35,379 nucleotides of DNA, from assembly GCA_009782385.1 (NCBI GenBank), contig WRJE01000015.1, positions 1 through 35,379 on the forward strand, written 5' to 3'. The notes beneath the pieces are model-generated. The model was not told the origin of the DNA and searched no databases. It saw only the letters and a program-made list of their open reading frames with translations. Each line of letters opens with the position of its first letter. The first letter of the stretch is position 1. The translations under genes were made by a program, and so were the position numbers. This document shows, piece by piece, positions 2,578 through 33,918 of this stretch. The stretch comes from Oscillospiraceae bacterium. Its GTDB lineage: Bacteria; Bacillota; Clostridia; Oscillospirales; UBA929.

Positions 2578-4821
2578 ATGAGCAATGATCCAATGCTGGA
2601 GATGTTTATCTTTGAAAATATGCAGCTTACGGAACGGCTGGAGGAAGTCCTTATAGAAGGGGACCAGCTGGGGATACTCAACGAGGAGCATATAAACGAA
2701 ATTTTCCGTATAATGCACACCATCAAGGGCAGTGCCGCCATGATGGAGTACGATAATATCGCAACGGTCGGACATAACGTTGAGGATATGTTCTACTTCA
2801 TTCGTGAAAATGAGGGCGTTAACCCCGACTGGAAGGTTATTGTTGATTTATGTCTTGAATCCGCCGACTTTTTCAAGCAGGAAGTCGCTAAAATTCAAGC
2901 GAACCAACAGGCCGACGGCGATGATACGGTGCTGATAGAAAAAATCAAGAAGTATATGGATATCCTCACCGGAAAAACACCGCCGGAGGCATCCGCCGAT
3001 GACGGCGGTGATGAGGGCGATACATCCGCCGATGTCGGCGATGAGTTCAGCGGCAGAGGTCTTGATTTGCTGCCGGGAGAACAATGCTTCCTTGTCCATG
3101 TGTTTTTCGAGACCGGATGTAAGATGGAAAACATCCGCGCCTATCAAATCACCAATACGCTTTTGGATTTGTCGAGCCACATCGAAACGGTGCCGGCTGA
3201 ACTGCTCGAGGATTGCAGTGACGAAATAATCGCTAACGGCGTTAAGATGTTCATTTGCACAAAAGAGCCTTTTGACATTATTAACAGCATTGTCAGCGAT
3301 GTATTGTTTGTAGAAAGATTTGAAATCAAGGTAATGGACAGCGGCGCGGCAGCCGTGCCAACGCCTGTTGAACAGCCGGAGGAAGCCGTTGTTGCGGAAG
3401 CTCCCGTTGAAATTCCCGTTGAAGCTCCCGTGGAGCCGCAAGAACCCCCGAAAACCAAAGGCAAAAAGAAGAAAGCTAAAGAAGAGCCTGAGACACCCGC
3501 AGAACCCGCTAAACCTGTTGCTCCGACCGTTACCGCCGCTCCCGTTACTCCCTCTGCCCCCGCGAAAGAGGTCGCGCCTGCCTCCGCCGCCCCTGCTCAA
3601 GCACCTGCCGCTCCTGCGGCGGCGCAGGCAGCGGCAGTTCCCGCCGAGGTTAAGCAAAGTTTCATAAGCGTCAATGTCGATAAGTTGGACAAACTTATGG
3701 ACTTGGCGGGCGAACTGGTAATTTCGGTCGCGATGGTTATTAACAACCCCGATCTTGCGGGACTTAATTTGGAGCAGTTTGAAAAAGCCGCCGCCATGCT
3801 CTCAAAAAACACCGGGGATTTGCAGGATATTATACAGTCGGTAAGAATGATACCCATATCGAGTACGTTCCATAAAATGCACCGCATTGTGCGCGATGTA
3901 TCCAGAAAGTTAAATAAAGATGTTGAGTTTACGATTCTCGGCGAGGAGACCGAGGTTGACAAGAACCTTATTGATAACCTCTCCGATCCTCTCATGCACA
4001 TTGTCAGAAACGCCATGGATCACGGCATCGAGCCGGATTCCGATGAGCGCGAGCGCAACGGCAAGCCGCGAGTTGGCAGCATTATACTTGAGGCGCGAAA
4101 CTCCGGAAGTGACGTTATTATTACCTGTACCGATGACGGGCGCGGCATAAACCGTGATAAAGTGCTTGCGAAGGCAATCGCGCAGGGTATGCTCACCAAA
4201 CCCGAGAGTGAGTATACCGACAAGGAAATTTACAACTTTGTCATGGCACCCGGTTTTTCAACTAACGATACAGTCACGGAATTGTCCGGGCGCGGTGTCG
4301 GCATGGACGTTGCAAAGAGGAATATCGAAAAAATCGGCGGTTCGATAGCGGTTGACTCCACACCCGGTCACGGTACGGTCAACACAATCCGCATACCGCT
4401 GACCTTGGCTATTCTGGCGGGTATTGAGATTAAAGTCGGCTCGAATATCTATATCGTACCGACGCTTAATATCAGAGAATCGTTCAAGCCGCAGGCCGAC
4501 CAGATAGTAGTTGACCCGGACGGCAATGAAATGATTCTGTTCAGGGGCGAATGTTATCCTATTGTCAGGCTTCACAGCCTGTTCTCGGTACACTCCGATG
4601 TGACGACATTCCAAGACGGCATTATGATAATGATAGAGGACGAGGGCATGATGACCGGGTTGTTCGCCGATATGCTTATCGGGGAGCAGCAGGTAGTTCT
4701 GAAGCCCATACCTCAGTTTATCACAGAGAGAATCGGGCAGATACGCGGAATATCCGGCTGTACGATTCTCGGCAACGGCAATATAAGTCTGATAATCGAT
4801 GTCAAAAGTCTTACGCAGTAG
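2578..4821 (+). CDS. cheA: Chemotaxis histidine kinase CheA
   Basis: CheA autophosphorylates on a histidine and passes phosphate to CheY/CheB response regulators in the receptor array. The 747-residue protein has all the expected modules. The Hpt domain carries the phosphorylated His at residue 47 (MHTIKGSA). A middle domain spans about 160-260. A long Pro/Ala/Glu/Lys-rich linker follows (about 265-360). Next come the dimerisation helices (DKLDKLMDLAGELV) and the ATPase domain with N-box HIVRNAMDHGIE (from about 474), G1 DDGRGI and G2 GRGVGMDVAKRNIEKIGG. A CheW-like C-terminal domain closes it. The start at 2578 is supported by GAGGTG at proper spacing; a GTG three codons upstream lacks one. 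cheW follows after 15 bases. No receptor, cheY or cheB gene is in the window. Confidence 0.97.
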   Translation: MSNDPMLEMFIFENMQLTERLEEVLIEGDQLGILNEEHINEIFRIMHTIKGSAAMMEYDNIATVGHNVEDMFYFIRENEGVNPDWKVIVDLCLESADFFKQEVAKIQANQQADGDDTVLIEKIKKYMDILTGKTPPEASADDGGDEGDTSADVGDEFSGRGLDLLPGEQCFLVHVFFETGCKMENIRAYQITNTLLDLSSHIETVPAELLEDCSDEIIANGVKMFICTKEPFDIINSIVSDVLFVERFEIKVMDSGAAAVPTPVEQPEEAVVAEAPVEIPVEAPVEPQEPPKTKGKKKKAKEEPETPAEPAKPVAPTVTAAPVTPSAPAKEVAPASAAPAQAPAAPAAAQAAAVPAEVKQSFISVNVDKLDKLMDLAGELVISVAMVINNPDLAGLNLEQFEKAAAMLSKNTGDLQDIIQSVRMIPISSTFHKMHRIVRDVSRKLNKDVEFTILGEETEVDKNLIDNLSDPLMHIVRNAMDHGIEPDSDERERNGKPRVGSIILEARNSGSDVIITCTDDGRGINRDKVLAKAIAQGMLTKPESEYTDKEIYNFVMAPGFSTNDTVTELSGRGVGMDVAKRNIEKIGGSIAVDSTPGHGTVNTIRIPLTLAILAGIEIKVGSNIYIVPTLNIRESFKPQADQIVVDPDGNEMILFRGECYPIVRLHSLFSVHSDVTTFQDGIMIMIEDEGMMTGLFADMLIGEQQVVLKPIPQFITERIGQIRGISGCTILGNGNISLIIDVKSLTQ

Positions 4822-4836
4822 GAAGGGGCTGATTAA

Positions 4837-5295
4837 ATGGACGAGATGGAAATCCAAGTAAATAATAAGAATGTTGTGACGCAGTACCTGACCTTTGCGA
4901 TAAAGGAAGAGGATTACGGGCTTGAAATAGCTGTCGTGACCGAGATAATCCGCGTTCAAACTATTACCCAAGTCCCCGAACTCCCTGATTATATCAAGGG
5001 GATAATCAATTTGCGCGGGCGCATAATTCCCGTCATGGATGTGCGCGTCAGATTCAGCATAGAGCCGCAGGAATACGATGACAGGACTTGTATCATAGTC
5101 GTTGACGTGCAAGGCACAAATATCGGCATGATAGTGGATACTGTGCGCGGTGTTGTGGATATAGCTGATGAAGATGTCACCGACCCGTCAAGCCACCGCT
5201 CCGGCTATGAGAACAGATATATCAGCGGTATCGGCAAAACCCCGAGCGGCGTAAAACTGCTGCTGAACCTCGACAAAGTCGTTTCGGATTACTAG
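4837..5295 (+). CDS. cheW: Chemotaxis coupling protein CheW
   Basis: CheW links chemoreceptors to CheA. The 152-residue sequence shows the family core: QYLTFAIKEEDYGLEIAVV, then the hallmark PDYIKGIINLRGRIIPVMDV, then VDTVRGVVDI near residue 105-115. Length is normal. The ATG at 4837 has GGAAGGGGC upstream and lies 15 bases after the cheA stop, so the two are co-transcribed from the promoter at 2506-2534. The stop codon is directly followed by a second TAG that forms the edge of a TAGGGG-type palindromic repeat. Confidence 0.95.
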   Translation: MDEMEIQVNNKNVVTQYLTFAIKEEDYGLEIAVVTEIIRVQTITQVPELPDYIKGIINLRGRIIPVMDVRVRFSIEPQEYDDRTCIIVVDVQGTNIGMIVDTVRGVVDIADEDVTDPSSHRSGYENRYISGIGKTPSGVKLLLNLDKVVSDY

Positions 5296-5442
5296 TAGGG
5301 GTCGATGCCCACATCGACCCGTATTTTGACACATCGTCCCGCCAAAAATCTAATCTGCAGTCCAACGGCGCGTCCTTCCGGACGCGCCGCTTCAGACTGT
5401 CGATAAACCCCATTATGGCGGGCGGGATGACTCCGTCCCTAC
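5296..5442. repeat. Composite palindromic intergenic repeat bounded by TAGGGG / CCCTAC
   Basis: The cheW-to-regulator gap opens with a perfect hairpin (arms 5299-5307 and 5312-5320, GGGTCGATG / CATCGACCC). In its middle is a second 10-bp stem (5366-5375 and 5380-5389), and it closes with GTCCCTAC at 5435-5442. The outer edges are therefore inverted copies of a GTAGGG motif that recurs at 7769-7774, 27108-27113 and 33832-33918. The element resembles a REP/MITE-like dispersed repeat and probably also ends cheAW transcription. Confidence 0.6.
5366..5393 (+). terminator. Strong hairpin, probable cheAW transcription terminator
   Basis: A 10-bp perfect GC-rich stem (CGGCGCGTCC / GGACGCGCCG) with loop TTCC is followed by CTTC rather than a long T-run. 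A near-identical design (same CGGCGC base, 4-base loop, CTTT after) ends the hydrolase gene at 6797-6824, which argues that both act as terminators. Confidence 0.5.
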
Positions 5443-5478: not shown

Positions 5479-5507
5479 TTGACTTATATTATCATCTATG
5501 ATAATAT
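5479..5507 (+). promoter_or_regulatory. Promoter with overlapping palindromic operator
   Basis: TTGACT (5479-5484) and TAATAT (5502-5507) are spaced by 17 bases. Between them lies a perfect palindrome, arms ATATTATCAT (5486-5495) and ATGATAATAT (5498-5507), which overlaps the -10. A further half-site GATAATAT occurs at 5518-5525. The position is right for repression of the next gene by its own product, a winged-helix regulator. Confidence 0.6.
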
Positions 5508-5547
5508 TATTATAAACGATAATATATTAGAAAGAGGTGATTATTCT

Positions 5548-6781: not shown

Positions 6782-6796
6782 CATACTAAAACCCAA

Positions 6797-6824
6797 CGGC
6801 GCACTCTTTCGAGTGCGCCGCTTT
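6797..6824 (+). terminator. Intrinsic terminator between convergent genes
   Basis: A 10-bp perfect stem (CGGCGCACTC / GAGTGCGCCG, loop TTTC) is followed by CTTTGTTA on the plus strand and by GTTGGGTTTTA on the minus strand. It lies 16 bases after the hydrolase stop and 14 bases from the end of the convergent M23 gene, so it probably serves both directions. Confidence 0.7.
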
Positions 6825-7740: not shown

Positions 7741-7753
7741 AATTGTGCTGATT

Positions 7754-7774
7754 GCGGCTAATAGCCGCCCCTAC
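7754..7774. repeat. Palindromic repeat overlapping the murC stop codon
   Basis: GCGGCT (7754-7759), three bases, AGCCGC (7763-7768) followed by CCCTAC. On the minus strand the GTAGGGGCGGC edge supplies the TAG stop of murC (7773-7771). Same family as the repeats at 5296-5442, 27089-27113 and 33832-33918. Confidence 0.6.
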
Positions 7775-27051: not shown

Positions 27052-27076
27052 AAAAAACCGCCTCCGGCGGTTTTTT
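27052..27076 (+). terminator. Intrinsic terminator of malQ
   Basis: A6-CCGCC, loop TCC, GGCGG-T6: an 11-bp A/T-flanked stem three bases after the malQ stop with a run of six Ts. Classical rho-independent structure. Confidence 0.92.
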
Positions 27077-27088
27077 AGATAAAAACAC

Positions 27089-27113
27089 GGCGCACCGGGG
27101 CGTTGCGCCCTAC
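27089..27113. repeat. Palindromic intergenic repeat, GCCCTAC edge
   Basis: GGCGCA (27089-27094) and TGCGCC (27104-27109) pair around a GC-rich loop, and the block ends in CCTAC. On the minus strand it opens GTAGGGCGCA, the same edge as the other repeats of the window. The remaining bases up to 27199 show no other feature. Confidence 0.5.
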
Positions 27114-27199
27114 ATATACTGAAAGATACGTTGTACCGCATGATGGCGGGGGAAGAAAAATCCTAGGAAATGCAAAAATAATTATTAGTGGGTGTTAAA

Positions 27200-27946
27200 A
27201 TGAGTGGTTCGATAATGCAAACTGAAATAGAAACCGGCTTAACTTCATTAGGTGTGAAACCGGGAATGATGATTGAAGTCCATTGTTCTCTCAGCAGTTT
27301 TGGTTATGTCGATGGGGGAGCCTTAACAATAATAAACTCATTGAAAAATATTGTCGGTAAAGACGGAGCTATTGTTATGCCGTCATTTAAGGATTCGCCT
27401 AATCTTCCACTTAATGAAAATGATAAAAAATTAGGCATAACTCTAAAAATCAAACTCTTAAAAGGGGACGAAGAAAAATCCGGTATGGGAATCGTTTCTG
27501 ATATGTTCAGAAAGATGCCGGATGTTATTACGGGTAAAGGTCAGTTCCGCGTTTCGGCTTGGGGCAAGGATGCGGAAAAACACGCCGCTGATTGGTTTAA
27601 TCACTTGATAGATTCCGATGGATATGCCTTATTATTAGGTGTTGATATTTATAAAATGTCATCCATGCACTATGTAGAGGATAATTTGCCGATGGAAATA
27701 AAAAATTTATTCAAACCATCGGAAGAAGCCCGGAAAATATATCCCGAATCAGAATGGTTTATAGAATCGTGGTCGCCAGTTGCAAAACCTTGGTATGTTA
27801 TTCAAAACAGAGCATATGAAAAAGGATATATTAAAGATATATTTATCGGCAACGCAAAATGTATGTTGGTTCAAATAAAAAATACTATTGAACTTTATAG
27901 ACAAGCCTTACGGGACAATCCATTTGAATTATATGGGTTAAAGTAA
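27200..27946 (+). CDS. AAC(3)-family (aminoglycoside 3-N-acetyltransferase-like) protein
   Basis: The 248-residue protein has the AAC(3) fold signatures: IEVHCSLSSFGYVDGGALTI near the start and GKDGAIVMPSF. GYALLLGVDIYKMSSMHYVE carries the late conserved His. The middle R-S-x-H-P-x-x-S stretch of true resistance enzymes is replaced by QFRVSAWGKDAEKHAADW, so it is a divergent member. It may acetylate another amine; resistance cannot be claimed. The ATG at 27200 has only a weak ribosome site (GTGGGTG). The gene is visibly richer in A/T than malQ and mreB on either side, is flanked by a repeat and a recombinase scrap, and looks horizontally acquired. Confidence 0.8.
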   Translation: MSGSIMQTEIETGLTSLGVKPGMMIEVHCSLSSFGYVDGGALTIINSLKNIVGKDGAIVMPSFKDSPNLPLNENDKKLGITLKIKLLKGDEEKSGMGIVSDMFRKMPDVITGKGQFRVSAWGKDAEKHAADWFNHLIDSDGYALLLGVDIYKMSSMHYVEDNLPMEIKNLFKPSEEARKIYPESEWFIESWSPVAKPWYVIQNRAYEKGYIKDIFIGNAKCMLVQIKNTIELYRQALRDNPFELYGLK

Positions 27947-32992: not shown

Positions 32993-33835
32993 ATGAAAAT
33001 ATTTCTGTATCGTGTGTTCTGCGGGTCTTTCCTAACGCTTTGCGCTTTAGCCCCCGGCTTCAGCGGCAGTGTAATGGCAATTATTTTGGGAGTATACCGG
33101 GATTTACTGCACGTAATTTCCAATCCCTTCAAAAACTTTAAGAAAAATCTAAAATTTATTTTCCCTATGTGTATAGGTGCGGTTATATGCGCGGTTTTGT
33201 TTGTGTTCTCGTTCAAGTTTCTGTTCGATACTTACGAAAAAGCGATATATTTACTCTTTGCGGGTCTGATTGCCGGAAATTTGCCGATAATATACAGTGA
33301 AATTAAAAAATGCGGGTTTCAGAGACGTTACTTGCTCGGGGGAACAGCCGCGTTTGCCGTTGCTCTGACATTTGGTGTTTTGGCGGCGGGAGTGTCCGCT
33401 TCGGGAGAGTTTGCTATTAGTCTTCCCATGATGGCATTAGGAGGAGTTGTAACGGGTGTTGCCCTGTTAGCTCCCGGGATGAGTGTGGCAACGATTTTAA
33501 TTTATATGGGCATATACAGTCAGCTGATAACAATGGCCGACTCGCTGCTGAGGATGGATTCCGCTTATCTGTTTCCTTTCGGGCTGTTTCTTGCTTGTGC
33601 GCTCGCGGGGGTTATATTCACTTCCAAGGGTGTTAAAACCCTTTTTGAACGTTTCCCGGGGTTTACTAACTCGATGGTATTCGGTTTTATGGCGGGATCT
33701 ATGCTTGGCGTTATCACGTTGAGCCTGCGCCTTGAAAGCTACAATTTCAACTGGTTTATCGGGGGTTTTATGCTCTTTGCGGGAGTGGTCGTCTCTCTTT
33801 TGCTCGTTATGCTCGGGAAAGTAATAAACAGGTAG
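32993..33835 (+). CDS. DUF368 family polyprenyl-phosphate transporter (PopT-like)
   Basis: DUF368 proteins are multi-pass membrane proteins; recent work has shown members that recycle undecaprenyl phosphate across the membrane. The 280-residue protein has about eight helices and two copies of the family motif: APGFSGSVMAIILGVYRDLL near residue 21 and the inverted-repeat copy APGMSVATILIYMGIYSQLI near residue 160. GGAGGG precedes the ATG. It is placed next to wall and division genes, which suits a carrier-lipid role. Its stop codon TAG is the first part of a GTAGGGG-edged palindromic repeat. Confidence 0.88.
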   Translation: MKIFLYRVFCGSFLTLCALAPGFSGSVMAIILGVYRDLLHVISNPFKNFKKNLKFIFPMCIGAVICAVLFVFSFKFLFDTYEKAIYLLFAGLIAGNLPIIYSEIKKCGFQRRYLLGGTAAFAVALTFGVLAAGVSASGEFAISLPMMALGGVVTGVALLAPGMSVATILIYMGIYSQLITMADSLLRMDSAYLFPFGLFLACALAGVIFTSKGVKTLFERFPGFTNSMVFGFMAGSMLGVITLSLRLESYNFNWFIGGFMLFAGVVVSLLLVMLGKVINR

Positions 33836-33918
33836 GGGCGGTCATTGGCCGCCCGCAGACAACCGATGGCGACCAATCGCGGGCGGACTATCGCGGGCGG
33901 ACGAACGGCCGCCCCTAC
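33832..33918. repeat. Composite palindromic repeat with GTAGGGGCGG / CCGCCCCTAC ends
   Basis: Perfect 10-bp inverted ends (33832-33841 and 33909-33918) enclose an 87-base block. Inside are two copies of ATCGCGGGCGGAC (33876-33888 and 33890-33902) at a 14-base period and an inverted GCCGCCCGC (33849-33857). The left end contains the DUF368 stop codon. It may terminate transcription, but no T-run is present. Confidence 0.7.

Follow-up and report, generated by a model that had tools for sequence, protein, structure and literature searches.

Dispersed GTAG-class REPs in an Oscillospiraceae genome and predicted REP-associated transposase genes with internal REP pairs

Palindromes of the window and their genomic counterparts

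The window analyzed here, the whole 35,379-nucleotide stretch of an Oscillospiraceae genome, contains four palindromes with a GTAGGG(G) edge next to cheW, murC, malQ and a PF04018 (DUF368) gene, and their reported coordinates and stop codons were confirmed (Table 1). The TAG inside the edge is the actual stop of murC and of the DUF368 gene, as the original prediction had it. At cheW the last base of the stop codon (5293-5295) is the first G of the repeat, so that a second TAG follows at once, also as described. The two copies said to have inverted ends on both sides are indeed wide-spaced head-out pairs, each of two stem types, although one partner in the cheW pair is degenerate. Head and architecture are common to the copies, which is the part of the proposed shared edge that stood, but the stem sequence differs among them, and GTAGGG alone occurs in the window at chance level (9 seen vs 8.6 expected).

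Table 1 Repeats and adjoining structures in the window.
Feature	Positions	Strand	Sequence and context
REP	5295..5321	+	GTAG + GGGTCGATG/CCCA/CATCGACCC, 9-bp stem; directly behind cheW stop
Degenerate REP	5419..5442	-	Inverted partner of 5295 copy; head-out pair, 148 bp; weak fold
REP, outermost pairs lost	7753..7774	-	GGGCGGCT/ATT/AGCCGC; its TAG (7773-7771) is the murC stop
Perfect intrinsic terminator of malQ, ordinary	27052..27076	+	Separate from adjoining REP
Complete REP	27088..27113	-	Type GGCGCAACG-CCC; between malQ and PF02522 gene; no stop codon involved
Left REP	33832..33856	+	GGGCGGTC-ATT-GGCCGCCC; PF04018 (DUF368) gene stops at its TAG (33833-33835)
Spacer of 33832-33918 pair	33857..33893	.	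More GCGGGCGGAC-like pieces (by eye only)
Right REP	33894..33918	-	GGGCGGCCG-TT-CGTCCGCCC; inverted partner of 33832 copy

Apart from the weakly folding copy at 5442, the window REPs fold stably, and three of their types are found elsewhere. The 25-nt core of the cheW-site REP occurs without any change in genomes from other families (e.g. G138, G308 and G123), full-length GGGCGGCT-ATT copies are present elsewhere in the same genome, and the GGCGCAACG-CCC type recurs at two further loci (L157 and L151). The gene behind the malQ REP (27188-27946) belongs to PF02522, the aminoglycoside 3-N-acetyltransferase family. Two similar palindromes at 5364-5393 and 6795-6824 (CAACGGCGC...GCGCCGCTT) are unrelated to the GTAG heads; they were considered as a second repeat family, but are probably terminators, since only these two were found in the 435-kb sample described below. 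AT-rich inverted repeats also lie at 5485-5529, immediately upstream of an HTH regulator gene.

The genome holding the window (G000; 2.17 Mb, 104 contigs, 88% complete) was sampled over 435,379 bp, made up of the window and 20 stretches of 20 kb each, and a GTAGG head was scored as a unit when a stem of 7 or more pairs came after it. The sample held 104 such units, compared with 3, 2, 1, 5, 4 and 4 for six control heads, corresponding by extrapolation to about 517 units genome-wide; further copies of a dispersed, REP-type element, as originally proposed, are thus present. The scanner tolerates at most one mismatch or wobble, which would make pairing percentages derived from it circular, and recovered four of the six window heads, missing those at 5442 and 7774. 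The pattern GTAGGGN12-42CCCTAC was found at 48 places genome-wide and its backward control at 0, and the stricter GTAGGGGCN5-35GCCCCTAC at 13 places with none for its backward control; the latter was present in 17 of 97 genomes, comprising G000, itself among the 17, and its relatives. The REPs are mostly extragenic, with 25 of the 104 inside an ORF as called by the simple ORF caller on which all gene calls rest.

Each unit consists of GTAG and a GC-rich stem, mostly of 7-9 bp and starting with GG, with a loop of 2-8 nt and most often a G as the base 3' of the stem. As in the GTAG class, a palindrome of 20-40 nt has GTAG or a variant thereof as its foot, and the stem varies together with its complement. 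Two-hairpin head-out dimers account for 32 of the 48 double-ended places, 29 of them with a gap of 2 nt, and 26 are composed of one CGACC-type half and one half that differs from it, while none has two CGACC-type halves. By our own rule for homotypy only one of the 32 dimers was homotypic, compared with 6.5 after shuffling (P 0.001). Wider head-out pairs in the sample are nearly all of two types too, so that instability of palindromes at short spacing is not supported as the cause of this avoidance, which is also discussed by Di Nocera et al. (2013; in the sections available of PMC3733652). Identical or near-identical REP dimers were observed 604 bp apart on C37 (10936 and 11540) and 444 bp apart on C70 (3774 and 4218), which suggests local duplication together with flanking DNA. 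One related genome (G305) holds about 50 copies of a single REP type (GTAGGGGAGGGTTTCCATGCCCTCCCG), e.g. on contigs C10, C22, C53 and C63, several of which lie less than 110 bp from contig ends, as if within a longer, assembly-breaking repeat.

REP copies at gene ends

Upstream of 54 sampled REPs a gene on the same strand comes to an end, and in 13 of these cases its stop is the TAG of the head. The next distances from the gene end are 3, 5, 6, 8 and 8, and positions 1-60 together hold 27 REPs, or 0.45 per position (P about 3e-15 for 13 at distance 0), an excess that is partly a matter of definition since any in-phase insertion into the end of a gene is counted at distance 0. The predicted overlap with stop codons beyond expectation was thus borne out. 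REP heads providing stop codons were reported by Di Nocera et al. (2013, section 15; PMC3733652, as far as its text was available), and for annotation purposes a stop at a REP head is a genuine gene end.

Orthologous sites in relatives were found empty, as expected from the mobility that had been claimed. The orthologs compared for cheW (9), murC (6) and malQ (8) have no REP at the site. At least one ortholog from the genus or family was available for 10 of the 13 stop-overlapping sample genes, and the sole ortholog with a REP (L199, the G002 relative of L154_19675) has one of another type, located at its own stop. No transposition event or target-site change was seen at the nucleotide level among the relatives compared, which, at about 45-94% protein identity, are too distant for intergenic empty sites to be aligned.

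The placement on stops might alternatively reflect target choice, with the REP inserting at an existing G-TAG that then becomes its foot. This is a variant of the transposase-driven spread discussed below, the two not being mutually exclusive, and we consider it a possibility of some weight. Five of the 10 stop-overlapping genes with orthologs share the codon at which they end with a close relative (L148_10482, L154_19675, L156_12736, L159_17589 and L161_1699), the relative's stop being already TAG in three of them (G001, G001 and G002), and one relative (L172) ends in AGG TAG GG with no hairpin. Against target choice, the same-codon relatives of L156_12736 use TAA and TGA, and other proteins are shorter than their relatives, namely L152_15711 by 2 and 4 residues, L151_16322 by 25 and MurC by about 2 (by eye). 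Moreover, in the published model, as given in the part available of PMC8266576, GTAG is part of the REP, whereas cleavage takes place at a C|T distinct from it. Given these mixed ortholog ends, both the supply of a TAG by the REP and the reuse of an existing one seem to occur.

As the REPs lie mostly behind genes and form stable folds, they could be plain terminators or attenuators that share the GTAGGG edge by accident, an account that we hold to be very improbable. A T-run, defined as at least 5 T in the 8 nt after the hairpin, directly follows only 14 of the 104 REPs, compared with 23 of 287 other GC-rich hairpins (Fisher P = 0.12), which also speaks against a terminator-like role of the 3' RNA structure initially suggested. 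In addition, the malQ REP adjoins a separate, perfect terminator, REPs are not kept at orthologous gene ends, the double-ended places contrast with their empty backward control, and an Rfam search of the window gave no match. As a class, the REPs are not terminators.

REP-associated transposase genes and their internal REPs

A search with PF01797 detected a 142-residue IS200-like frame (contig C10) and a RAYT-like gene (C48; L026, 5540-6025 on the minus strand), and an alignment of nine relatives a second RAYT with a longer insertion on C20. From their sequences, the latter two are predicted to be REP-associated (Y1/HUH) transposases, the type of enzyme that the original prediction had called for. 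In the C20 gene (L146), HUH and Y are separated by a long insertion that keeps the frame and is built from repeated REP-like pieces. The RAYT-like proteins carry NHVH/NHIH, WQ and Y..N motifs and, together with in-gene REPs, present the NH[IFV]H, WQ and Y..NP combination that marks subclass 2.4 (group 4). For all three RAYTs tested the best NCBIfam family was NF047646 (REP-associated tyrosine transposase), with scores of 57.7, 64.2 and 71.2 bits that fall below its curated cut-off of 80 bits, and Y1_Tnp was barely passed (23.6 vs 23). The best PDB profile match was 4ER8 (1.9e-10; ISDra2 8e-5), which was also the first Foldseek match of the predicted structure of a relative (L036, mean pLDDT 88.6), with the ISDra2 transposase nearly level. 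At another locus (L038) two RAYT frames with the same hairpins, at about 2986-3468 and 3774-4256, lie about 790 bp apart as a tandem duplication.

Hairpins with a GT[AG]G head are present within the RAYT genes themselves. Our set of 125 ORFs was reduced to 124 by dropping one with fewer than 100 model positions; at least one such hairpin occurs in 111 of these frames and one per strand in 86, compared with 29, 13, 26 and 16 for four control heads. After removal of 5 duplicates, a stricter rule applied to the 119 distinct RAYTs identified a left REP in 84, a right REP in 93 and both in 73, facing outward around the HUH motif. The left head lies in frame 0 and reads Val-Gly in 81 of 84 cases. 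In the aligned region left heads cluster near nt 105-135 and right heads near 290-350, and in the L036 model, with residue numbers from our own arithmetic, the left REP would encode about residues 40-48 at a beta hairpin and the right one about 93-100 in the loop that leads to the next helix. Both REPs were present in 44 of 74 Bacillota frames obtained by a related-locus search, which returned few rows for other phyla. For annotation, REP-coded peptides within RAYTs, such as VGARIARP, represent translated hairpins and not conserved protein motifs.

The left and the right stem of a gene match at 7.63 of 8 positions (4.73 after shuffling, maximum 5.18) and are identical over 8 nt in 53 of the 73 pairs (shuffled 2.7, maximum 10), which comprise 47 stem types. 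As the two REPs are read from opposite strands and yield different peptides, protein constraint does not explain this identity. Of the 73 pairs, 6 failed rules on position or start and were left out of a tree, whose 67 rows were compared with the REP-coded columns removed. This quick tree, in which many forks are weak, requires a minimum of 42 changes of the left label and 40 of the right. Swapping of the inner cassette as a unit between the internal REPs was considered and is not favored, because the C-terminal segment is the one most closely related to stem similarity (partial r -0.235, compared with -0.127 for the inner and -0.058 for the N-terminal segment; P 0.002, 0.002 and 0.09, 500 permutations each). 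This fits co-evolution of the stems with the half after the right REP; shared descent also contributes.

The internal stems also relate RAYTs to REPs outside the genes. Among 53 RAYT loci holding both kinds, 25 have a flanking REP with the internal stem (shuffled mean 2.5, maximum 8), although only 31 of the 125 flanking REPs match; RAYTs with matching REPs in the same genome or in relatives, another property of the GTAG class, were thus found. Of the dispersed G000 stems, 67 of 104 occur inside some RAYT of the set (column-shuffled mean 22.8, maximum 35). The internal stem type of the C48 RAYT is represented by only 2 of the 104 sampled REPs and one near match, so that the RAYTs of this genome, in an assembly 88% complete, do not account for most of its copies. 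We infer that the dispersed REPs form a mixed population to which several RAYT lineages, both present and past, have contributed. The simpler rule of one REP family per RAYT and genome was rejected: GTAGGGGAGGGN8CCCTCCCG was found in 7 of 7 genomes with a GGGAGGG-type RAYT but also in 10 of 30 others, a comparison that is not a clean test, as the 7 of 7 includes in-gene copies and other genomes can hold further, unread RAYTs. Similarly, the GGGACGATG pattern was found in 4 of 4 carriers but also in 13 of 33 others.

The base preceding the head is mostly a pyrimidine (T 61, C 30, A 7 and G 6; n=104), often as CT (15 vs 3.4 expected at -2/-1) or TT (24 vs 9.3). The TnpA-REP enzymes of E. coli and Stenotrophomonas cleave at C|T, with GTAG as the presumed guide (PMC8266576, in the part available). 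By analogy, the enrichment of CT is consistent with, though no proof of, RAYT cleavage of the REP strand at C|T.

Origin of the repeats and known REP systems

The repeats are very probably GTAG-class REPs and head-out pairs of these (REPINs), non-autonomous elements spread via single-stranded DNA by HUH/Y1 RAYTs (TnpA-REP) that resemble subclass 2.4 of Quentin (group 4 of Bertels). The GTAG would act as the guide of an enzyme cleaving a C|T step beside the REP, as published enzymology suggests, and the REP would consequently land behind a pyrimidine. Copies would persist beside gene ends because they are harmless there; an in-phase landing within the last codons would by definition make the TAG the stop, and some landings seem to reuse a TAG already in place. 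The many stem types in one genome would be the residue of the RAYT lineages inferred above. That the repeats are instead MITEs of a DDE transposase, with terminal inverted repeats and target duplication, is likewise very improbable, as two-ended copies do bear inverted GTAGGG ends but heads are also found singly, in tandem and head-in, the stem varies while the head is constant, and near-identical hairpins lie within and beside RAYT genes.

More speculatively, and with considerable doubt, the clostridial RAYT gene may carry its own substrate in the form of two outward REP copies that flank HUH in frame and whose stems would be rewritten together at each shift in specificity. As a self-target, the pair might then maintain the match between enzyme and REP and allow the gene to regulate or re-seed itself. 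If this were true, the gene of any such RAYT would show directly which REP belongs to it, and the RAYTs that passed through a genome would have left a fossil record in the form of dispersed REPs. How RAYTs and REPs are matched and how new REP families originate are standing questions. A gene that contains its presumed substrate twice, with dozens of concerted changes in the two copies, would make them testable, the internal stem predicting the substrate.

The element itself, the heterodimers, the stop-codon placement and the in-gene REPs of subclass 2.4 are already published (PMC3733652 and PMC6006769, each as available in part). In the portions accessible of the literature searched, neither this REP family in Clostridia nor an outward, stem-matched and co-changing in-gene pair was found described, although the supplementary figures of PMC6006769 may show part of the latter, and the bare string GTAGGGGCG returned, among the matches listed, no title on repeats.

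The arrangement as inverted REP pairs, which may act as single units, is shared with the REPINs of Pseudomonas. Those described by Bertels and Rainey in 2011 are reportedly pairs of one type with a longer spacer, whereas the dispersed pairs found here are of two different types. Compared with the GTAG superfamily of Di Nocera et al. (2013, PMC3733652), in whose available text Bacillota are unnamed, with 0 occurrences of Firmicutes and of Clostridi, the present elements stand out by the prevalence of the 2-nt gap (29 of 32 dimers) and of the combination of one CGACC-type half with a different half (26 of 32). With TnpA-REP subclass 2.4, or RAYT group 4 (Quentin et al. 2018, PMC6006769, in the parts available), the RAYTs and REPs found here have in common the NH[IFV]H, WQ and YIxNNP motifs, double-foot REPs and in-frame REP insertions within the transposase gene. 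Internal REPs of that subclass generally lie between HuH and Y, whereas here a second REP precedes HUH, and the two internal REPs point outward with stems that change together, features of which figures S6 and S10 of that paper may show some. The E. coli TnpA-REP (4ER8) is the best profile and fold match of the RAYTs, yet with about 20% identity, and REP stems in E. coli pair imperfectly and contain a bulge (PMC8266576, as available), whereas those described here are mostly perfect or nearly so.
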